The notes below the pieces were generated by a model, which saw only the letters and a program-made list of their open reading frames with translations, was not told the DNA's origin and did no database searches. 64,000 nt of DNA, taken from NCBI RefSeq assembly GCF_029094545.1, contig NZ_CP117835.1, positions 3,390,001 through 3,454,000 of the forward strand. The letters are read 5' to 3'. The position numbers were made by a program, and so were the translations under genes. The DNA is from Alkalihalophilus pseudofirmus. Its GTDB lineage: Bacteria; Bacillota; Bacilli; Bacillales; Bacillaceae_D. Positions 9,592 to 50,096 of this stretch are shown one piece after another. The first letter of the stretch is position 1. Each line of letters opens with the position of its first letter.

Positions 9592-9665
9592 TAGCTCCCG
9601 AAATATACTACGCTTTCCGCGGAAGCTTCCGGACCGCCCGCGGAAAGCGAGTACCTGCAGCAGAG
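9592..9665. repeat. Solo hybrid of dispersed repeat families A and B
   Basis: The left part (CCGAAATATACTACGCTTTC) matches one end of family B; the right part (GCGGAAAGCGAGTACCTGCAGC) is the inverted end of family A. The two meet in a perfect 12-bp inverted repeat (9611-9622 and 9638-9649, CGCTTTCCGCGG). It looks like a deletion product of an A/B pair. Confidence 0.7.
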
Positions 9666-9802
9666 GTTAACACCTACTGTAAGGCGGACTTCTGAGTGAC
9701 ATTCTTTACTTCCAAAGTAGACCTTGCGTGAACATCATCCGCTAGATTAGAGCTGTTCATATCATGAGTCAAACACTGTGGTTATGTCCCAGTCTGTTTC
9801 CT

Positions 9803-10833: not shown

Positions 10834-12114
10834 ATGTTTTGTCCCAAATGTGGAACCGAATTCAAACAGCGTTCCAAGTATTGCGTGAATTGCGGCAACA
10901 AAAAGAAACAATCATTAATATTACTAATTGCCCTCTTTTCCTTTTTAACAGTAAGCGGTCTCGTTTTCCTTCAATTTTCTGATCACTTTTTTAATAAAGA
11001 AGCAACCAACACCATCCAGCCAGTAGCACAGCCTGCTGATATTGCTCTAGAAGAGTCACCTTCTGAGGTACCAAAGCCAGAACCAGCAGTCGTCGTTAAA
11101 GTGGAACAACCTAAAGAAGAAACCATTCGAGAGTTAACAGAGATTATTGCTGATGCCCAGCAAAATGTCTATACAATCTATAATTCTTTTAGCCAAGGAT
11201 CTGGCTTTTTATATAATAAAGACGGTATAGTTGTAACAAATGCACATGTAGTTGAAGGATCTACTGAAGTAACTGTGAAAACAATAAGTGGCACAGAACA
11301 TCACGGTCTAGTCATCGGCTATTCAAATGAAATTGATGTAGCCGTGATAAAAGTTAATGATTTTATCGGCCGAACCCCACCTAAAATTGCTTATGATCAA
11401 CCATCCTTAATTGGAGAGGAAGTTATTGCTCTAGGGAGTCCATTAGGTTTAGAGAACACCGCTTCAATGGGATATGTAACAGGAGTCAACCGTGATTTTG
11501 TAATTGACAACTTCACTTATTCGAACTTATACCAAATTTCAGCACCTATCTCCCCGGGAAGCAGCGGCGGACCTCTGCTTTCACAAAACACCGAAGAAAT
11601 TATTGCTATTAATTCAGCCAAGGATACACGAGATAATTCTATCGGATTTAGCATCCCCATTTATACCGTTCATGACCTTATTGAATCTTGGATTATGAGC
11701 CCTATGAGCGAGGAAGAGATTTACTCCTTATTTTTCTTTAGTGATGGTCTATATTTCTATGATTATTTGTGGGACTTTTATGAGGGTGGCTATTTTGATG
11801 GAGGCGATTACTCCTCGGATTCTTCTTACTTTGAATACTGGGATTACGAGTATGACTGGAGCTACGATTATGAAGAGTATGAGTATGACTACGAGTACGA
11901 TGATGATTATGATTATGATTATGATTACGAAAATGACTATGACTACTATGATTATGATTACGAAGAATATGAGTATGACGAAGTCGATGAGTATGAGTAT
12001 GAGTATGAGTATGAGTATGAGTATGAGTATGAGTATGAAGAAGATTGGGATGTAGAAAGCTATCAGTCAAATGAATGGCTTGAAGAAGAATTACAAGAGG
12101 AGTATGACAACTAA
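10834..12114 (+). CDS. Membrane-anchored HtrA-like serine protease with N-terminal zinc ribbon and Tyr/Asp/Glu repeat tail
   Basis: A 426-residue protein; the ATG at 10834 follows AAGAGGAGG. Residues 3-20 form a zinc ribbon (CPKC ... CVNC), 27-47 a membrane helix, 48-100 a Pro/Glu-rich stalk. Residues 101-290 are a trypsin-like fold with His138 (VTNAHVVEG), Asp168 (EIDVAVIKV) and Ser244 (PGSSGGPL), as in HtrA proteases. No PDZ domain follows. Instead residues ~303-426 are an acidic tyrosine tail with alternating EY, DY and YE, including eight consecutive EY units. The protease and tail should lie outside the cell. The tail is atypical for HtrA; its function is unknown. Confidence 0.85.
   Translation: MFCPKCGTEFKQRSKYCVNCGNKKKQSLILLIALFSFLTVSGLVFLQFSDHFFNKEATNTIQPVAQPADIALEESPSEVPKPEPAVVVKVEQPKEETIRELTEIIADAQQNVYTIYNSFSQGSGFLYNKDGIVVTNAHVVEGSTEVTVKTISGTEHHGLVIGYSNEIDVAVIKVNDFIGRTPPKIAYDQPSLIGEEVIALGSPLGLENTASMGYVTGVNRDFVIDNFTYSNLYQISAPISPGSSGGPLLSQNTEEIIAINSAKDTRDNSIGFSIPIYTVHDLIESWIMSPMSEEEIYSLFFFSDGLYFYDYLWDFYEGGYFDGGDYSSDSSYFEYWDYEYDWSYDYEEYEYDYEYDDDYDYDYDYENDYDYYDYDYEEYEYDEVDEYEYEYEYEYEYEYEYEEDWDVESYQSNEWLEEELQEEYDN
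11989..12036. repeat. Hexanucleotide microsatellite (GAGTAT)8 inside the protease gene
   Basis: Eight perfect in-frame copies of GAGTAT encode (Glu-Tyr)8. It is the core of a longer purine-pyrimidine region, 11870-12040, made of GAY/GAR-TAY codon pairs. Slippage would change tail length without shifting the frame. Confidence 0.9.
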
Positions 12115-12127
12115 ACATTTTAATAGC

Positions 12128-12167
12128 AAAAGCTGCCTCAAAAGGTTTATCCTTTAAGGCAGCTTTT
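12128..12167. terminator. Bidirectional terminator between the two protease genes
   Basis: Eleven-base perfect arms 12128-12138 and 12157-12167 (AAAAGCTGCCT type) between convergent genes ending at 12114 and 12178. Confidence 0.88.
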
Positions 12168-14477: not shown

Positions 14478-14522
14478 ACAGGGAGTGTAACATCACTAAA
14501 ATTTTTTAGGAGGATGATTTAC

Positions 14523-15134
<612 letters not shown>

Positions 15135-15477: not shown

Positions 15478-16497
15478 ATGTTAGAGTTAGTTGTATTACG
15501 TGCTCTTGTAGGACGTATTCCGCTTGTCGCTCGATTAATATCCATCGTTTTCATTTTAGCCACTACGATTGGATTAATTATTCATTTTATCGAACCTGAT
15601 GTGTTCCCTACTTGGTTTGATGCCGTATGGTGGGCGCTAGTCACTGTCTCTACAGTAGGCTACGGGGACTTTGTACCAGTAACAACAATCGGACGTGTTT
15701 TAGGAATTATTTTAATTTTTTCAGGAGTGGGGTTTATGACTCTGTTTGTCACCTCACTTGCCGCTAAAACGATCTCGACTGTAAACGCTTTTCGTGAAGG
15801 GATGTTAACATTTATGGGTGATGGGCACGTTATTATTATCGGATGGAACGAACGGAGCAGGCACGCAATTGAAAATTTGCAAAAAGTAAAACCTAAATCA
15901 TCAATCGTATTAATTGATGATACGTTGCAGGAGCTGCCTCAAGGATTAAGACATATTCATTTTGTCAGAGGAAACAGCAGTGAGGATGCTACATTAAAAC
16001 AGGCAAACATAGGGCTCGCAAGCAGCGTGCTTATTACTGCGCAGCATCAAGGAAGTGAGTTTTCATCGGATGCTCATTCAATTTTATCCACATTGGCTGT
16101 CAAATCTCAGCATCCAGAAGTGTATACGATTGTGGAAGTGTTAACAACTGAACAAATTGCTAACGCTAAAAGGGCTGGCGCGGATGAAATTGTGGAATCT
16201 ACTACGTTGACAGGTTCAGTTCTGATAAACAGTCTGTTATACCATCACATGAGTGACGTACTAGACGACTTATTAACTTTTAATGAAAGAACTCAATTAA
16301 CATTCAGCCCCATCGTGGAAGAACATGTAAAAAAAACGTTTGCTGCTTTGTTAATCGAATTATACAACGGAGGAGATTTATTAATTGGAGTAAAACGTTC
16401 TGAGGAAGTTTTACTCCATCCGCCTCATGACACAGTGATACAGCAAGGTGATTTATTAATATTAATTAACAGGCTCCATGCTAGTACAATAAAGTAA
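15478..16497 (+). CDS. yugO: Potassium channel with RCK domain, YugO-like
   Basis: A 339-residue channel subunit. Residues 15-85 are two membrane helices with the selectivity filter TVGYGD at 59-64. Residues ~105-230 are an RCK/TrkA-N Rossmann domain (GHVIIIGWNERSRHAIENL), and the rest is the RCK C-terminal half. This is the MthK/YugO architecture; in Bacillus subtilis biofilms YugO releases K+ for electrical signalling. It sits in the conserved yug block beside yugN and pgi. ATG 15478 follows GGTGG; an in-frame TTG at 15469 is less likely. Confidence 0.9.
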   Translation: MLELVVLRALVGRIPLVARLISIVFILATTIGLIIHFIEPDVFPTWFDAVWWALVTVSTVGYGDFVPVTTIGRVLGIILIFSGVGFMTLFVTSLAAKTISTVNAFREGMLTFMGDGHVIIIGWNERSRHAIENLQKVKPKSSIVLIDDTLQELPQGLRHIHFVRGNSSEDATLKQANIGLASSVLITAQHQGSEFSSDAHSILSTLAVKSQHPEVYTIVEVLTTEQIANAKRAGADEIVESTTLTGSVLINSLLYHHMSDVLDDLLTFNERTQLTFSPIVEEHVKKTFAALLIELYNGGDLLIGVKRSEEVLLHPPHDTVIQQGDLLILINRLHASTIK

Positions 16498-18531: not shown

Positions 18532-18649
18532 CCGCTCCAAAAATATACTTCGCTTTCCGTGGGAAGCTGGTGAGCCTCCTCGAGCTTCGCCCTGCGGGGT
18601 CTCACCGTTGCTTTGGATCCCACTGGAGTCTACGTATATTTCTTCCGCT
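18532..18649. repeat. Dispersed repeat, family B
   Basis: A 118-bp intergenic element bounded by CCGCT at both ends. Its blocks CGCTTTCCGTGGGAAGCTG, GAGCCTCCTCG, GGGGTCTCA and GGAGTCTACGTATATTTC recur at 36521-36639 and 48008-48126 in the opposite orientation. The rest of 18359-18711 holds nothing I recognise. Confidence 0.8.
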
Positions 18650-18711
18650 AAGGAATTGCTTCGTTCAAAAAACCCCTTAAATACAATCTTCAGTCCAAGT
18701 CTATCTTCACC

Positions 18712-23239: not shown

Positions 23240-23274
23240 AAGAGCTGCTCCTCTAAAAGTGAGGAGCAGCTCTT
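23240..23274 (-). terminator. Hairpin downstream of the alaT 3' array
   Basis: Fourteen-base perfect arms 23240-23253 and 23261-23274 around a 7-base loop. On the minus strand it is followed by TTTAACATAAAAAA. It is the first strong stem past alaT and its repeat array, so it probably ends that transcript. Confidence 0.65.
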
Positions 23275-23307
23275 CTGATGTAGATACGTTGCTTTGGCTA
23301 GTGAAAC

Positions 23308-23486
23308 GGTGCAATTACTCTCTGAAAAGATACAATTCCGCTGTGCCTTGACGCAATATATGTTTTAACTGACGCAATTAGTGGAGAAAGACGCAAATAA
23401 ACCTTTAACCGACGCAATTGCGCGAGTAAGGAGCGCAATCATCTTAGTAACAGACGCATAAATACCCTGAAAACTTACCATTGTTC
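23308..23486. repeat. 21-bp phased GACGCAAT array, locus 1
   Basis: The conserved C of the motif (consensus GACGCAAT, with variants GGTGCAAT, GATACAAT, AGCGCAAT, GACGCATA) occurs at 23312, 23333, 23354, 23375, 23394, 23415, 23436 and 23457, and weakly at 23478. Spacing is 21 bp throughout except 19 bp after unit 4. Between the motifs the sequence is not conserved. The array starts about 40 bases past the alaT stop codon. It is homologous to the arrays at 41928 and 49099. Confidence 0.9.
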
Positions 23487-23518: not shown

Positions 23519-24691
23519 TTAAAACTGTTTTAAAAACCGGCCGATCCGCTCAACCGACTGTTCGAGATTTTCCATAGACGTTGCATAGGAGCAACGAATA
23601 TGCCCCTCGCCGCCTTCACCGAAAACATGTCCAGGAACAACAGCGACTCGCTCTTCTAGCAAAAGCTTTTCTGCAAACTGTTCAGATGTTAGGCCTGTTT
23701 TTTCAATCGACGGGAAAGCATAGAAGGCACCGCCTGGCGTGTGACATTCCAATCCAATTTCAGAAAAAGATTTAACAAAATAATTACGACGCTGCTTATA
23801 GGACTGCTTCATGCGGTATACATCATCCATACCGGTCTTCAGTGCCTCTAGCGCACCGTACTGTGCCATCGTCGGTGCACACATAAGGCTGTATTGGTGG
23901 ATTTTCAGCATTGCACTAAGCAAGTCTTTTGGGGCACATACAAAGCCAAGACGCCATCCTGTCATGGCAAATGCTTTTGAAAACCCTGAAATGATGACCG
24001 TTCTCTCTTTCATTCCTTCAAGACTCGAAAAGGCTACATGCTCTTCGTCATAGGTCAACTCGGCATAGATCTCATCTGAGAATACTAATAGATCATGGCG
24101 TTCAGCCAGCTCGGCAATCTCTTTTAATTCTTCCTGATTCATTGTAGAGCCAGTTGGGTTATTTGGGAAACAGAGCATCATAGCTTTCGTTCGGTCTGTG
24201 ATGGCAGCTTCAATTTGAGCAGCGGTCACTTTAAAATCAGTATCAATATTCGTCCCTACTGCCACAGGCACCCCGCCTGCCATCGATACTAAAGGCGCAT
24301 ACGATACGAAACTCGGCTCAACGACAATGACTTCATCGCCTTCATCTACTATTGCTCTCATCCCGACATCGATGGCTTCACTTGCCCCTACAGTTACCAA
24401 AATCTCTGATTCAGGATCGTAATCAACAGAGAAGCGAGAAGTCATATAATTAGAGATTGCTTCTCTTAATTCAATGATGCCCGCATTGGCTGAGTAAGCA
24501 GTGAAACCGCGCTCCATCGAAGAAATACTTGCTTCACGTACGTTCCAGGGTGTCACAAAATCAGGCTCCCCAACACCAAGTGAAATGATATTATCCATAC
24601 TTGATGCAAGGTCGAAAAATCGTCTTATGCCTGATGGCTGGATGGATTGCACTTTTTTAGATAAACGTTTGTTTACTTGTTTGGTTGTCAT
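23519..24691 (-). CDS. alaT: PLP-dependent aminotransferase, AlaT/YugH-like
   Basis: A 390-residue class I aminotransferase. Visible signatures: SLGVGEPDFVTPWNVREA, YSANAGIIELREAI, FPNNPTGSTM, the PLP-lysine in SGFSKAFAMTGWRLGF and IRCSYATS near the end. It overlaps the upstream Lrp-type regulator by ATGA. The same pair in Bacillus subtilis (yugH-yugG) is the alanine transaminase AlaT and its activator AlaR, which supports alanine/pyruvate transamination. The 3' region holds the phased array. Confidence 0.88.
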   Translation of the reverse strand: MTTKQVNKRLSKKVQSIQPSGIRRFFDLASSMDNIISLGVGEPDFVTPWNVREASISSMERGFTAYSANAGIIELREAISNYMTSRFSVDYDPESEILVTVGASEAIDVGMRAIVDEGDEVIVVEPSFVSYAPLVSMAGGVPVAVGTNIDTDFKVTAAQIEAAITDRTKAMMLCFPNNPTGSTMNQEELKEIAELAERHDLLVFSDEIYAELTYDEEHVAFSSLEGMKERTVIISGFSKAFAMTGWRLGFVCAPKDLLSAMLKIHQYSLMCAPTMAQYGALEALKTGMDDVYRMKQSYKQRRNYFVKSFSEIGLECHTPGGAFYAFPSIEKTGLTSEQFAEKLLLEERVAVVPGHVFGEGGEGHIRCSYATSMENLEQSVERIGRFLKQF

Positions 24692-36190: not shown

Positions 36191-36238
36191 GTATAGGGGG
36201 CTGAAACAGGTCACTGAAAAAGTCCCCCTACAGTAGTT

Positions 36239-36366
36239 GTTGATTTCCGCTGCAGGTACTCGCTTTCCGCGGGCGGTCCGGAAGCCTCCTCGTCACTCCG
36301 CTCCTGTGGGGTCTTCCCTGGCCACGCACTTCCCGCAGGAGTCGAGTACCTTCCGCTACAATCAAC
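36239..36366. repeat. Dispersed repeat, family A (full copy)
   Basis: A 128-bp element with 24-bp imperfect terminal inverted repeats (36239-36262 and 36343-36366; outer GTTGATT, inner GGTACTCG). The interior shares CGCTTTCCGCGGG, GAAGCCTCCTCG, CTGTGGGGTCT and CCCGCAGGAGTC with family B. A shorter copy is at 47835-47936. Confidence 0.85.
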
Positions 36367-36520
36367 GGAGCGCGAATGTTGTTTAGTTGCTCCCTCATTA
36401 CTAGCAGAAAATGCTTCGGAAATTTGATGTGTAACAAGTGGTAGCTCAGTCCAATATTCATTTGAACTGAGCGCGCCATAAACTAAATCCTCCACATAAC
36501 ATCCTCCAAAAATATAACTT

Positions 36521-36639
36521 AGCGGATGAAATATGCGGAGACTCCTATGGGAGCTAAAGCAAAGCTGAGACCCCACAGGGCATAAGCCCGAGGAGGCTCA
36601 GCAGCTTCCCATGGAAAGCGAAGTATAGTTCAGGAGCGG
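36521..36639. repeat. Dispersed repeat, family B (inverted copy)
   Basis: A 119-bp element in the opposite orientation to the 18532-18649 copy, lying 154 bp after a family A element. Together with 36239-36366 it fills the 518-bp gap between the MFS and YbcF-like genes. The rest of the gap holds no gene that I can support. Confidence 0.85.
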
Positions 36640-41227: not shown

Positions 41228-41379
41228 CTTTGTCTCCTCTAGTTGATTTATCCTTCCTTTAATGTATCATTACACAGGCCAGTTCTCAATTTCACCAAGA
41301 AACCTTTACATAGACTTAACAATGTCGATTTTTTTACTCCTTGCTTCTTTCATTGTCTGTCTATACGGAGGATGGTACG

Positions 41380-41871
41380 ATGAAACTATTATTGTTTCAT
41401 AAAGGAAGGAAAACACTCATGATTCTACGTAAAGTTCTAGTCGCTATTCTTACTAGCTTCTTTGTTATTCTCTTTGGGTCTACCTACATCAGCTCTTGGG
41501 ACATGTTTCAAACGTTTTATGAAGCCTGGTTTTTTGTTTCTTTATTCGCTGTAACGGGAATTCTCTTTTATCTGCTGCCTGTATCCGTGCTTGCCGAGTT
41601 TATTAGCCGTAAATACACGAATTCCATTGTGCGAGGAGGCATTTCCCTTGCTATTCATATCGCGCTCGTTGCTTTATTTGGGTTATGGGATGCAAATTTA
41701 GGTTATATTGCCATCTTCGCAGCGTTTGGCTTTTTTGTGATTGATGAATTGACGAGAAACTTCTATGACATACCTGTGATGAAAAAGCTGATTGTCTTCT
41801 CAACCATCGCAACAGGACTTATTACAGTTTGTTTAATGATTATCGGATTCATGAGCACCCCCACCAGCTAA
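41380..41871 (+). CDS. Four-helix membrane protein, hypothetical
   Basis: A 163-residue protein with a basic N-terminus (MKLLLFHKGRKTL) and four membrane helices (about 18-36, 44-67, 88-118, 134-157). GGAGG eight bases upstream supports the ATG at 41380. No conserved catalytic motif is visible and I do not recognise the family. It is divergent from chrA and followed by a terminator. Confidence 0.7.
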   Translation: MKLLLFHKGRKTLMILRKVLVAILTSFFVILFGSTYISSWDMFQTFYEAWFFVSLFAVTGILFYLLPVSVLAEFISRKYTNSIVRGGISLAIHIALVALFGLWDANLGYIAIFAAFGFFVIDELTRNFYDIPVMKKLIVFSTIATGLITVCLMIIGFMSTPTS

Positions 41872-41881
41872 CAACATTACA

Positions 41882-41912
41882 AAAGCTGTCCCGCGTATTG
41901 CAGGACAGCTTT
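41882..41912. terminator. Bidirectional terminator after the membrane protein gene
   Basis: Ten-base perfect arms 41882-41891 and 41903-41912 (AAAGCTGTCC/GGACAGCTTT). On the minus strand it also ends in TTTTG, so it can stop the dctP transcript coming through the phased array. Confidence 0.85.
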
Positions 41913-41927
41913 GTTCGTATAGGAAAG

Positions 41928-42110
41928 GACGCAATAATGTTATATGTTGAGGTCATACTGGCTTATATTGACGCATATCCCGTCTAAAGCGGCGCAATTA
42001 CTTGTGATTGGCGCAATGGAGGCGGATATGAACGCAATAAGGCGATGATTGCACGCAATTGAATTTGTCTCTGACCCATAAACGGTCGGAAAAGATACAA
42101 TTACTGTTCA
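41928..42110. repeat. 21-bp phased GACGCAAT array, locus 2
   Basis: The motif C occurs at 41932, 41954 (degenerate GGTCATAC), 41974, 41995, 42014, 42035, 42056, 42077 (GACCCATA) and 42098 (GATACAAT). The first two gaps are 22 and 20 bp (together two periods), the gap after unit 4 is 19 bp, and all others are 21 bp. The last units read GACCCATAAACGGTCGGAAA then AGATACAATT. It lies about 70 bases past the dctP stop codon, between convergent genes. The rest of 41872-42175 is the terminator. Confidence 0.9.
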
Positions 42111-42175: not shown

Positions 42176-43249
42176 TTATTCATGCTCAGCAATTTCTTCT
42201 AATAGAAGGTCGAACATTTCGCGGCCTTCATCACCAATGATTTCATCGCGGAAGAAGTCACGAATTGGCAGCTGCAGCTCACGGAACTCTGCACGCTCTT
42301 CTTCAGTCAGCTCAATCACTTCTGTTGGGTTATCCGTATCATTTACAATCGAATCAAGCAGCTCTTCGTTTAACTGGTCTTGAATTTCAAAACCACGGTC
42401 ACGCATTTCTTCTACCGTCTCATCTAATGCTGTGCGGATATCTTCAGGCAGATCATTGTAGATACCAGGGTTAATCGTCACCATTGCTACATACGTGTTA
42501 TGGTTTGAGATTGTCATATGATCTTGAACCTCATGGAAGGATGCATCCTCGATAAAGAAAATTGGATTTTCCTGTCCGTCCACTACTCCGCGATCAAGCG
42601 ACACATAAAGCTCTGACCAGCTAAGCGGAGATGGGTCTGCGCCGTATGCTCCGTATGTTTCAAGCATTAAAGGTGAACTTTGTGTACGCATTTTGAAGCC
42701 GTTAAAGTCTTCTGGTGTACGTAATTCACGGTTCCCTGTCCACTGCATTGCCCCTTCTGACATAAATGCAAGCGGCTTAAGGTTTTGCGCTTCATATAAT
42801 TCGACTAAATGTGTGTTTAACGCTTCACTAGTATTTAAAATTTCTTGTGTAACTTCTTGGTCATCCGGGAATAAGAATTGCAATGAGAAGACCTGTCCTT
42901 CAGCTACTAAGCCGCCAGTAAAACCTGGAGAAATGATTCCCATTTCAAACATTCCTTGCTGGACGCCTTCAACTTGGTCAACTTCACTACCTAATGAACC
43001 GAAGTCATATACATCAATATTTACTTGGCCATCTGTCTTTTCATTTAAACGCTCAGCAAATTCTTGTGCGTACTCATATTGTACCTGTCCTTCTGTTTCC
43101 TCTACGACAAAGCGCCAGTCATACGTTTCACCGCCGCTTGCTCCGTTGTCGCCTTCTGTTGCAGCATCGTCACTTCCACATGCTGCAAGACCTACTGCAA
43201 GTGCTGCTGCCATAGCGCCTGTTAGTACTTTTCTCTTTTTAAAAAACAT
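42176..43249 (-). CDS. dctP: TRAP transporter solute-binding lipoprotein, DctP
   Basis: A 357-residue periplasmic-type binding protein tethered as lipoprotein (signal ends GLAAC, residues 1-23). TRAP signatures: GKMRTQSSP-type FKMRTQSSPLMLETYGAYGADP (substrate carboxylate Arg near 188) and LDRGVVDGQENPIFFI. The protein is strongly acidic, as expected for an alkaliphile surface. It is last of the dctQ-dctM-dctP operon. The likely ligand is a C4-dicarboxylate or other organic acid. The 3' region holds a phased array. Confidence 0.9.
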   Translation of the reverse strand: MFFKKRKVLTGAMAAALAVGLAACGSDDAATEGDNGASGGETYDWRFVVEETEGQVQYEYAQEFAERLNEKTDGQVNIDVYDFGSLGSEVDQVEGVQQGMFEMGIISPGFTGGLVAEGQVFSLQFLFPDDQEVTQEILNTSEALNTHLVELYEAQNLKPLAFMSEGAMQWTGNRELRTPEDFNGFKMRTQSSPLMLETYGAYGADPSPLSWSELYVSLDRGVVDGQENPIFFIEDASFHEVQDHMTISNHNTYVAMVTINPGIYNDLPEDIRTALDETVEEMRDRGFEIQDQLNEELLDSIVNDTDNPTEVIELTEEERAEFRELQLPIRDFFRDEIIGDEGREMFDLLLEEIAEHE

Positions 43250-47742: not shown

Positions 47743-47834
47743 GTTAGATAAAAATTAAACAGTAAGAGGTTTGGACATATAGTGTTTAGCTGAGAAGCGT
47801 ATAAATGTTGAACTAGTCTCTCCTAACAATGGTT

Positions 47835-47936
47835 GTTAATTTCCGCTGCAGATACTTGCTTTCCGCGGGCGGTCCGGGGGTCTCCCTTGGCCACGCAACA
47901 TCCCGCAGGAGTCAAGTACCTTCCGCTCCAATCAAC
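47835..47936. repeat. Dispersed repeat, family A (26-bp internal deletion)
   Basis: A 102-bp copy of the 36239-36366 element. The ends (GTTAATTTCCGCTGCAGATA and TTCCGCTCCAATCAAC) and the CGCTTTCCGCGGGCGGTCCG block are kept, but about 26 bp between GTCCGG and GGTCT are missing. Confidence 0.85.
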
Positions 47937-48007
47937 AGAGCGAATAGGAAGTTGAGCTGATCCTCAACAAAATCATTCCACGTCATTTATACAAAAAGCA
48001 ATGGCTT

Positions 48008-48126
48008 AGCGGATGAAATATACGTAGACTCCTGTGGGTGCTAGAGCAGGAGTGAGATCCCACAGGGCGAGAGCCCGAGGAAGCTCACTAGCTCCCCACG
48101 GAAAGCGAAGTATATTTCAGAAGCGG
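48008..48126. repeat. Dispersed repeat, family B (inverted copy)
   Basis: A 119-bp copy in the same orientation as 36521-36639, again 71 bp downstream of a family A copy. The two elements fill most of the 500-bp gap between yuiD and the BtuF-like gene. Confidence 0.85.
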
Positions 48127-48244
48127 GGCAGATACACCCTGCACCATTTTGTTAGCATGTGACTTCTCAATCAACACGCTCGATTTGTCCGAGCCTCTTT
48201 TTTATACCTTTAACTATTTTTCTTGTGCAATAGGAGGTTCATTT

Positions 48245-49057
48245 ATGAGAATTGTATCTATTTGTCCTAGTAACACAGAGCTTGCTGCATACTTAGGGTT
48301 AGAAGATCAGTTGGTTGGAGTGGACGATTACTCTGATTGGCCACAGTCCATAACAACTCTCCCTCGCCTTGGCCCTGATTTATCCATCGATATGGATAAG
48401 CTTGAAGCTTTGCAGCCTGACCTTGTCCTCGCTTCCCTTAGTGTTCCGGGAATGGAGAAAAATATTAAAGAGCTTGTGCAACGAGACATTCCGCATGTTG
48501 TCTATAATCCACAGTCTCTTGATGATATCGCTTCCGACCTTATCGACCTTGGCAAACGCACTGGACGTGAAGAACATGCAGACCATGTTGTCTCCCTCTA
48601 TCAATCGATGATTTCCGATTACAAAAGCATTGCATTACAAGTAGAAAAACAAACGCTCTATTGGGAATGGTGGCCAAAACCTGTTTTTACTCCAGGAAGA
48701 ACAAATTGGCTGACTGAGATCAGTTCATTAAGCGGGGGAGAAAATGCATTTATGGATAAAGAGGAAGCAAGCATCCAGACCGATTGGGAAGACGTATACA
48801 ATCGAAATCCAGACCATATCTGTCTTGCATGGGTAGGTGTTCAAACAAACAAGGTGAAGCCGGAACTGCTATTGAAACGACCTGACTGGCCAGAGCTACC
48901 AGCAGTAGCTGAAAATCGGGTCCATGTTCTGCCTGAGCCCCTCTACTGCAGACCCTCTCCAAGGCTTTTACTTGGACTTAAAAAGCTTGCGGCAATCCTT
49001 CACCCCGAACATTTTCCAGCGGATGACGGTGTTGACCCTCTGCTTCAACAAGCATAA
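48245..49057 (+). CDS. BtuF-like cobalamin-binding protein, apparently cytoplasmic
   Basis: A 270-residue periplasmic-binding-protein fold protein (PF01497 type): MRIVSICPSNTELAAYLGLE, LVGVDDYSDWP, GPDLSIDMDKLEALQPDLVLA and NPDHICLAWVG. AGGAGG sets the ATG at 48245. There is no signal peptide or lipobox and no permease or ATPase next to it, unlike transport-linked BtuF. Such soluble forms are annotated as cobalamin-binding proteins in Bacillus. A cytoplasmic corrinoid or haem-type binding role is inferred. Confidence 0.75.
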   Translation: MRIVSICPSNTELAAYLGLEDQLVGVDDYSDWPQSITTLPRLGPDLSIDMDKLEALQPDLVLASLSVPGMEKNIKELVQRDIPHVVYNPQSLDDIASDLIDLGKRTGREEHADHVVSLYQSMISDYKSIALQVEKQTLYWEWWPKPVFTPGRTNWLTEISSLSGGENAFMDKEEASIQTDWEDVYNRNPDHICLAWVGVQTNKVKPELLLKRPDWPELPAVAENRVHVLPEPLYCRPSPRLLLGLKKLAAILHPEHFPADDGVDPLLQQA

Positions 49058-49059
49058 AA

Positions 49060-49090
49060 AACAGGAGCTGACCTCGGGTCAGCTCCTGTT
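49060..49090. terminator. Bidirectional terminator after the BtuF-like gene
   Basis: Fourteen-base perfect arms 49060-49073 and 49077-49090 with a 3-base loop. T-runs follow on both strands (TTTTTT), so it can also end the yuiC transcript after the phased array. Confidence 0.9.
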
Positions 49091-49098
49091 TTTTCATA

Positions 49099-49278
49099 GG
49101 CGCAATATTGTTTTGAATCGACACTATTGTAATTAGCATAGACGCATATAGCGGTTGAAACGACGCAATAACACCAGATAAACGCAATAAAGCTGGCAAA
49201 CGGCACAATATCCGTAAACATCAGCGCAATAAGCTCTTTAACTAACGCCATAACTCTTATGAAAAAATACAATAACCA
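49099..49278. repeat. 21-bp phased GACGCAAT array, locus 3
   Basis: The motif C occurs at 49103, 49124 (GACACTAT), 49145, 49166, 49185, 49206, 49227, 49248 and 49270. Gaps are 21 bp except 19 bp after unit 4 and 22 bp at the end. The last units read AACGCCATAAC, then ATGAAAAAATACAAT, as in locus 2. It lies 25-30 bases past the YuiC-like stop codon. Confidence 0.9.
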
Positions 49279-49301: not shown

Positions 49302-50003
49302 TTATTCATAAGACTTTTCATTTCTAAATACTTGTACAGTCTCATCTTCATTTAAAGCCATTAATTCCTCATGAGTTAACTTTCCGTCTCCTCGCTCAAT
49401 TACATACACATCCAATTCGCGCTTGCCCCACTTATTAAATACCTCATCAACGGAGTCATAATATAGATCAATGGTATGCCCCTTGATTGCTGATCCAGTA
49501 TCAGCTACCACACCGTATCCATAACCTGGAATGTAGAGGATTGATCCGATTGGGAAAACGCTTGGATCTGCGGCAATCGTTGAATAGAGGTCCCTATGAA
49601 CCTGCACCCCTGAATATGTAATACCATAACTAGGGTGTCCGGGATTTTTTCCCGTTGATTCATACCCTGCTGTATATCCTGTCGCCACGACTCTTACGCT
49701 AGGATAACGTGTCCAGTCAACAGCCTCTTCAAGTGTCACAGGTGCAGCCTCTAACTCAGTAGACATCGACTTTTCCTCAATCTGCATCGTTGGAATGGCT
49801 CGCTTAAAGAAAGCTGTCGCCTTTTCCATATGCTGAACTGCCGTTCGTTTAAGTTCATCATTTGTATGAGCAGCTTGTTCGCCTACCCACCGGCCAAGCT
49901 CCTGTGCCCCTACTCCTGAAAATGTTTGAAAGGTTGTAAAAAATGCTGCTAAAAATAACGTTGTCATGACCAGCCTGCGGCCAGCTTGTTTCCACGTATT
50001 CAT
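49302..50003 (-). CDS. yuiC: 3D-domain secreted protein, YuiC-like
   Basis: A 233-residue protein. The ATG at 50003 has GAGGAGGAG upstream; the eight in-frame codons before it are unlikely. An N-terminal hydrophobic segment (residues 10-33) acts as signal or anchor. The C-terminal 110 residues form the 3D double-psi barrel: [47 protein letters not shown], with the three conserved Asp. YuiC of Bacillus subtilis is a peptidoglycan lytic (stationary-phase survival-type) enzyme. It lies in the yui block; its 3' region holds a phased array. Confidence 0.88.
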
Positions 50004-50096
50004 AATCTCCTCCTCTCTTTGAGTCATCTTGTCCCAAAGAGAGGCATTCTATTCATCTAGCCGTAAATTGTAAGAGTAGTGTAGTAAATTCCCTGC

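Follow-up and report, generated by a model that had tools for sequence, protein, structure and literature searches.

A 64,000-nucleotide stretch of the Alkalihalophilus pseudofirmus chromosome (hereafter the window) carries, around position 49,099, a short word that recurs at about every second helical turn. The locus raises the question of whether this is a loose run of 8-mers or an element with a design of its own, and what such an element would do where it is found. The sequence-only reading of the window had proposed a new family of helically phased arrays, in which one 8-nt motif returns every 21 bp with unconserved sequence in between, and had set it apart from CRISPR and from origin iterons.

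Layout and unit grammar

The main finding is a nine-unit array on the plus strand at 49093..49275, recovered by chain scan and alignment and matched with 110.8 bits by R1, a model of the array built from sequence only. Its units start at 49099, 49120, 49141, 49162, 49181, 49202, 49223, 49244 and 49266, and the nine C positions reported before, from 49103 to 49270, are all correct. The further arrays announced at 23308-23486 and 41928-42110 are present as well. They are nine-unit arrays of the plus strand at 23302..23484 (121 bits) and 41922..42104 (109.3 bits), with degenerate units 2 and 8 in the latter. When both strands of the window were scanned for motif chains, the three arrays scored 14.5, 11.5 and 8.5 and no further chain reached a score of 7; in 20 first-order Markov random sequences of window length, the top-scoring chain of each stayed at 2-4. 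Looser chain settings recovered 8-9 units in register in each of the three, which are absent from the output of Tandem Repeats Finder.

The grammar of the nine units is fixed, with steps of 21, 21, 21, 19, 21, 21, 21 and 22 bp, and nine copies from this genome align almost without gaps over 183-184 columns. Column frequencies of 56 near-full-length copies of the same genome give the unit consensus RAAnnGRCGCAATWA. In units 2 and 9 the word is mostly ATACAATT and in unit 3 GACGCATA; unit 8 reads GACGCATAAA or GACGCATAAAC, and the remaining units read GRCGCAAT. All units are asymmetric, non-palindromic direct repeats. Among 97 near-full-length copies (56 from this genome and 41 from the congener G001), 80 have exactly the length of the model, 13 deviate by 1 bp and 4 by 19-21 bp. 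For instance, the G001 copy of the 23302..23484 array lacks exactly one 21-bp unit step.

The proposal of a single 8-nt motif every 21 bp thus holds for the phased array and fails for the equality of the units, which are position-specific variants. Similarly, the 19-bp unit exists, and is better described as a fixed design step between units 4 and 5, the last step being 22. The sequence between the motifs is not wholly unconserved, as had been claimed: RAA is conserved 3-5 bp ahead of each motif, and the linkers hold a weak column-specific consensus (32% identity versus 26% when shuffled), a pattern that descent from one dispersed copy accounts for as well. Rather than a loose run of 8-mers, the array is an element of fixed grammar that takes a preferred orientation relative to a terminator. 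A coding origin, in which 21 bp would represent seven codons, is rejected because the 19-bp step breaks the frame; no gene of annotated size lies over the arrays within the window.

Repeats of other kinds are also found in the window. A second dispersed repeat of ~125 bp, 84-85% identical, is located at 18532-18661, 36518-36639 and 47996-48126, with many copies also in the genomes G002 and G015, and more repeated pieces are placed at 9618-9700, 36210-36372 and 47809-47942. An ORF at 14514-15134 spans a long AGCAAC-type hexanucleotide tract; with a sub-cut-off LEA_5 match and a short KGG match, it perhaps encodes a stress or spore-coat protein. A degenerate 6-bp tandem repeat (11875-12038) is located at the 3′ end of a trypsin-like peptidase gene.

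Chromosomal distribution and gene context

In its own genome, R1 gave 94 matches at E<=10, of which 78 had E<1e-7, and a second search over the fetched stretches of this genome gave 74 places with at least 35 bits. The 4.2-Mb genome therefore carries about 75 copies, and a similar number is found in G001 (89 matches at E<=0.001). The excess of 20-22-bp spacing is genome-wide: a pattern of three CGCAWW words at 20-22 bp had 66 matches, and none when reversed as a control. Together with the homologous arrays that the model searches found in related genomes, this excess establishes the proposed family of helically phased arrays as genuine.

The 74 places leave three gaps of 0.96, 0.64 and 0.57 Mb, a pattern that did not arise in any of 20,000 random placements. 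Strong arrays are missing from contig C1 of this genome (G000) at 2.38-3.33 Mb, at 1.26-1.83 Mb and around the origin, with a few weak R1 matches inside the second and third gaps. The dnaA gene is at position 340 of the contig, so that the second gap of 0.64 Mb spans the origin if the contig is circular. The arrays of at least 50 bits nearest to the origin are at 0.446 Mb and 3.888 Mb, the latter at a distance of ~190 kb on the assumption of a circular 4.08-Mb contig; two weak full-length R1 matches at 15962 and 39618 (16 and 40 kb) lie near the origin and outside the 74. In accordance with the earlier exclusion of origin iterons, there is no cluster of arrays at the origin beside the initiator gene, and the strong arrays are far from dnaA. 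The terminus was not placed, as the B. subtilis dif pattern had no match. The chromosomal clustering of the arrays is left unexplained by a generic role at gene ends.

In the window, each array has a hairpin on its 5′ side. The gene of a Peripla_BP_2 solute-binding protein (48149..49057, plus strand; Pfam PF01497, E 2e-32) is followed by a terminator-type hairpin with AGCTGACC/GGTCAGCT arms and A/T runs at its sides (49056..49094), directly 5′ of the 49093..49275 array, after which comes the convergent gene of a 3D-domain protein (49302..50027, minus strand; PF06725, E 1.1e-20). In the case of the 41922..42104 array, a 176-aa gene without a Pfam match (41341..41871, plus strand) precedes the hairpin AAAGCTGTCC..GGACAGCTTT (41882..41912), which is directly 5′ of the array, and a convergent DctP solute-binding protein gene (42176..43249, minus strand; PF03480, E 4.6e-84) follows. 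The hairpin AAGAGCTGCTCCTC..GAGGAGCAGCTCTT (23240..23274) is located 5′ of the 23302..23484 array, beside which lies an aminotransferase class I/II gene (23519..24691, minus strand; PF00155, E 1.1e-73).

Genome-wide, a terminator-like hairpin with a T-run is found 5′ of 41 of the 62 arrays; 10 arrays have such a hairpin on their 3′ side when the opposite strand is read, and one shuffle per flank gave none in 62. Many of these hairpins score on both strands. The arm word AGCTGNCC occurs in 31 such hairpins within 485 kb of sequence that, apart from the window, was chosen around arrays; 24 of the 31 precede an array by 11-47 bp, and none follows one. The three hairpins of the window that are of at least 9 bp and have AGCTG/CAGCT arms all precede an array; a looser match at 12131 precedes none.

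The gene contexts of the 74 arrays, which rest on crude gene calls, are convergent in 32 cases, tandem in 31 and divergent in 3, and the remaining 8 overlap short predicted ORFs that are taken as spurious. Thus, 66 arrays are intergenic, 63 of them in convergent or tandem settings. Compared with 65 neighboring gene pairs of the window, convergent settings are more frequent (32/66 versus 13/65, p=0.0008) and divergent ones rarer (3/66 versus 14/65, p=0.004). In tandem settings, the array is oriented like the genes in 23 of 31 cases (p=0.011). The arrays stand mostly behind intrinsic terminators, on a preferred side, with an enrichment between convergent genes in this genome.

The base composition flips over the arrays: the 40 bp before them are G-rich and C-poor, and the 40 bp after them C-rich and G-poor. 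This switch holds for each gene context that is represented by at least two arrays, and the Rossellomorea-type set described below shows it too.

Related arrays and evolutionary rates

The CGCAWW pattern was found in 63 of 199 genomes of the order, this one included, and in 18 of 249 genomes drawn from the phylum. The reversed pattern had at least one match in 22 of the 199 and zero in most, and in G009, G151 and G157 its matches outnumber the true ones. Many of the 63 genomes have 1-3 matches only, possibly by chance, and a single array yields several matches. At least 10 matches, above the controls, are present in 24 genomes, some of which (G065, G092 and G105) owe them to near-perfect tandem repeats. 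Flavors outside the pattern exist, such as GTCACAATAACC in G044, so that zero matches does not mean zero arrays.

The arrays of other genera have their own flavors of the motif. G038 carries GRCGCATAAAC, with 5 to 31 units in the chains of one locus; an apparent second copy on its contig C2 was rejected as an assembly duplicate (11.8 kb at 99.9% identity). Other flavors are CACGCATATCGG in G167, CGCGCATAAA in G103 and AATCGCAAWTAAA, at 20 bp, in G132. With a stricter pattern, which matched at least 120 stretches, strains of Rossellomorea and Bacillus made up 54 of 80 among the matches listed. These 54 stretches, together with 40 further matches taken irrespective of strain, constitute the Rossellomorea-type set. 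Its 94 chains, drawn from the at least 120 stretches matched, include 85 of 4-6 units, with steps of 21 (210 cases) and 20 bp (206 cases). The commonest succession of steps, 21, 20, 20 and 21, is shared by 16 chains, with position-specific linkers. Terminators are found on the 5′ side of 39 and on the 3′ side of 5 out of 89 arrays, and the contexts are tandem (49), convergent (15), divergent (6) or unassigned (22), without convergent enrichment (15/70).

A second model, R2, was made from 16 sequences of this type, 6 of them from these 40 further matches. It matched G187 (28), G162 (21), G134 (13) and G061 (13) and, more weakly, G000 (51) and G001 (43), and gave no match in G103, G212, G002, G038 and G132; R1 matched G187 (25) and G134 (10). 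The congener G002, which is ~75% identical, has 4 CGCAWW-pattern matches and no match to either model, so that this species either can do without the function or performs it by other means. The syntenic gaps of G002 are ~200-240 bp shorter at 49099 and 23308, and its syntenic sites for 41928 and 49099 have another terminator and no array. Related arrays are patchy across the other genera of the order.

Matches of the stricter pattern outside Bacillus and Rossellomorea, inspected by eye among the matches listed, were for the most part coding or perfect tandem repeats, or hairpins formed by inverted GACGCAAT/ATTGCGTC. Family f61, from another class of the phylum, has possibly related three-unit CCGCATTTTAACCC arrays, which stand before another conserved stretch. 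Dispersed CCGCATTTTAACCC arrays occur in genomes of another class (L447-L455), several followed by a GACAGG/GGCAGG..TGTAGAA-like stretch, which we take to resemble Spo0A boxes. Among the matches listed, three Bacteroidales loci (L301, L306 and L311) have four-unit ATTGACGCAATAATT arrays at ~21 bp, intergenic by eye and apparently independent of the Bacillales family. In a loose-pattern scan of viruses, which matched at least 120 stretches, 78 of 80 among the matches listed contained a single match.

The comparison with G001 addresses the evolution of the arrays. A best partner in the own genome was found for 41 of the 44 G001 elements compared, nearly all with matching flanks. Rates were taken from the 25 pairs in register; the other 16 comprise 4 false partners, 7 pairs with more than 6 bp of length difference and 5 with own copies gapped against the model. 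Changes were seen at 125 of 1780 core sites (7.0%), 56 of 646 RAA sites (8.7%), 307 of 2019 linker sites (15.2%) and 340 of 1808 sites of the nearest 38 bp of flank (18.8%), with p=1e-15 for core versus linker and p=0.003 for linker versus flank. Gap columns numbered 3 in the interior, 18 at the two element ends and 184 in the flanks, the flank number being inflated by forced end-to-end alignment and the rarity of indels resulting partly from the exclusion of pairs with larger ones. Three excluded pairs of changed length each show a gap that exactly equals a repeat step (21, 19 and 19 bp), one of them with an extra 1-bp gap elsewhere inside the array. Such one-step gaps are compatible with whole-unit slippage as well as with selection on phase. 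With cores at half the linker rate between the two species, evolution appears to protect both the motif and the spacing.

These rates bear on a rival account of the family, namely a dispersed repeat of hairpin plus array that spread long ago by copying, serves no function of the host and now persists only through element-level selection or conversion. The recurring AGCTGNCC arms (24 of 31 hairpins just 5′ of arrays, in 485 kb that are mostly array-centered), the two G002 syntenic sites with another terminator and no array, and the weak common linker consensus speak for it. Against it, the 47 in-register own copies carry no sign of recent copying (a single local trio has linkers 60-69% identical), 41 of the 44 G001 copies are partnered with flanks nearly all matching, cores change at half the linker rate in these vertically inherited copies, and clear terminal inverted repeats are lacking. 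We consider this account unlikely. A MITE, in particular, is rejected: flank complementarity averages 6.56 versus 6.42 (SD 1.28) for swapped flanks, again without clear terminal inverted repeats. Scores of at least 9 are found in 9.7% versus 5.1% of swapped flanks, a small excess at most.

Candidate function and comparison with known systems

The composition of the arrays is phased more finely than the motif. In 47 copies, the power of A/T dinucleotides at 10.25 bp reaches 3.26, against 0.34 after shuffling, and exceeds the 21-bp signal. A 10.5-bp harmonic is natural to a 21-bp repeat; its rise above the fundamental is due to two A/T patches per unit. The A/T period of the own arrays is 10.25-10.5 bp, and a peak at ~10-10.5 bp is present in all 8 array sets tested, which include the Rossellomorea-type set (92 arrays), G038 (14) and G167, G132, G137, G147 and G111 (1-3 arrays each). 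The ~10.5-bp A/T phasing points to double-stranded DNA. Selection on motif and spacing, together with this phasing, would fit the binding of a protein to the DNA.

We tentatively favor, at a little below an even chance, the reading that each array allows the multivalent docking of a DNA-bending protein, which would form a wrapped complex and probably act as a boundary or a supercoil sink behind genes. Many copies of one sequence-specific protein would dock head to tail on the double-stranded array, making one strong contact per two helical turns, at GRCGCAAT or one of its variants, and contacting an A/T minor groove once per turn. The ~170-180 bp would thereby be bent or wrapped into one defined nucleoprotein particle. 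Placed behind terminators, usually oriented as the ending gene and here often between convergent genes, the particle would most likely act as a boundary, which may block residual read-through, retain the supercoils driven into gene ends by transcription, or both. The family, its grammar, the slower change of cores than of linkers between two species, the phasing, the preferred side and the position behind terminators are observed; the protein, the wrapping and the boundary role are inferred. The link to terminators is incomplete (41 of 62 own arrays), which counts against a boundary.

The main functional rival is that the arrays are strong DNA-gyrase sites, functionally like BIME-2 of E. coli, where phased A/T and G/C would let gyrase wrap DNA at the places where positive supercoils gather behind transcribed genes. 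Their location at gene ends, and between convergent pairs in this genome, is the expected one, and the ~10.5-bp A/T phasing over >100 bp provides the helically phased A/T over ~130 bp of a strong site. Gyrase is, to our knowledge, universal, whereas the arrays are patchy across genomes. In published work, the sites preferred by E. coli gyrase are a 130-bp motif with phased G/C content, BIME-2 elements and regions downstream of transcribed units (PMC6379681, PMC12393610); within the motif, two periodic arms flank a centre of ~36 bp (PMC12393610). The arrays resemble such sites (Mu SGS, the Topo-Seq motif) in phased A/T and G/C over >100 bp and in gene-end preference. They differ in being direct repeats in one orientation, phased throughout without a separate centre, with a sharp, lineage-specific core word. 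Gyrase sites are an improbable explanation.

The position of the arrays, on a preferred side of the terminator, and the C-rich, G-poor sequence on their 3′ side would also be expected if they worked as RNA, as part of a 3′ untranslated region or as Rho-entry or processing signals. The folding of 47 copies, however, is like that of shuffles on both strands (mean fold-energy z -0.05 and -0.24). The consensus fold is empty, a result of low power since ten column-shuffled controls are also empty, and Rfam contains no family matching the arrays. A spacing of 20-21 bp with A/T every ~10.25-10.5 bp is the repeat of B-DNA, and a role as RNA is very unlikely.

Returning to a docked protein, a ring of RemA (DUF370), or a similar ring with LytTR-like units, could wrap the arrays. 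According to PMC8481266, RemA forms 8- and 16-subunit rings, 71 A wide, with a proposed wrapping of DNA, and two RemA subunits match one LytTR domain. By arithmetic, ~84 bp per ring corresponds to four 21-bp units, the size of the groups 1-4 and 5-8. LytTR operators, as described in PMC6193735, are mostly 9-bp direct repeats 12 bp apart and share the 21-bp step with the arrays. On the contrary, RemA-like genes (PF04025) are present in 189 of 199 genomes of the order, with two copies in nearly all, including the model-negative G002; G132, with 73 array-pattern matches, has no PF04025 match; and the sites given in PMC8481266 are AT-rich, of 7 bp, 3 bp apart and at promoters. As the arrays of G132 coexist with the lack of such a match, RemA is rejected as the general binder despite its fitting geometry, and ring wrapping of this kind is highly improbable. 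The likeness is in the 21-bp direct repeats of LytTR operators and the proposed ring wrapping of RemA; the arrays differ in their core word and in their presence in a genome without RemA.

The arrays could possibly, with considerable doubt, represent an undescribed class of boundary elements in the order Bacillales and perhaps the wider phylum: terminator-coupled, oriented arrays that a candidate multivalent protein wraps into a particle of fixed size, in which the core word and steps drift by genus and the layout (CGCA, A/T tract, linker and RAA, every two turns) stays. No published description of such arrays was found in a limited search of open-access literature, mostly of titles and abstract openings. 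If the docking reading holds, many Bacillales chromosomes have tens of evolutionarily maintained nucleoprotein sites near gene ends, giving a sequence-defined handle on the separation of neighboring genes and on supercoil management. The genus-specific grammars would be a natural series for the joint change of array and reader.

Among known systems, CRISPR has near-identical repeats of ~23-50 bp with unique spacers, unlike the arrays, which are ~75 short dispersed ones with a conserved word of 8-15 bp and position-specific variants. Plasmid iterons and centromere repeats are direct repeats of ~20-22 bp read by one protein. The arrays share this repeat length and differ in lying off the origin in ~75 dispersed chromosomal copies. 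With the BIME/REP elements of enterobacteria, for which roles in supercoiling and termination have been proposed, the arrays have in common a large number of intergenic copies at gene ends. REPs are 20-40-bp palindromes, whereas the arrays consist of phased direct repeats that are not palindromic and follow a fixed unit grammar.

The nearest anatomical model for the candidate binder may be a head-to-tail filament on direct repeats such as that of BldC, as a likeness and not a membership. According to PMC5859096, this MerR-like protein polymerizes head to tail on direct repeats and bends DNA, and its repeat AATTXXXX(C) combines an A/T minor-groove contact with a C-G pair that follows at 4 bp. 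When reverse-complemented, the array unit reads TAATTGCGTC and fits that repeat. BldC would resemble the candidate binder in the variable number of direct repeats, the strong bending and the fit of the repeat sequence; its repeats are ~one helical turn apart and in promoters, whereas the word of the arrays returns every two turns and near gene ends.
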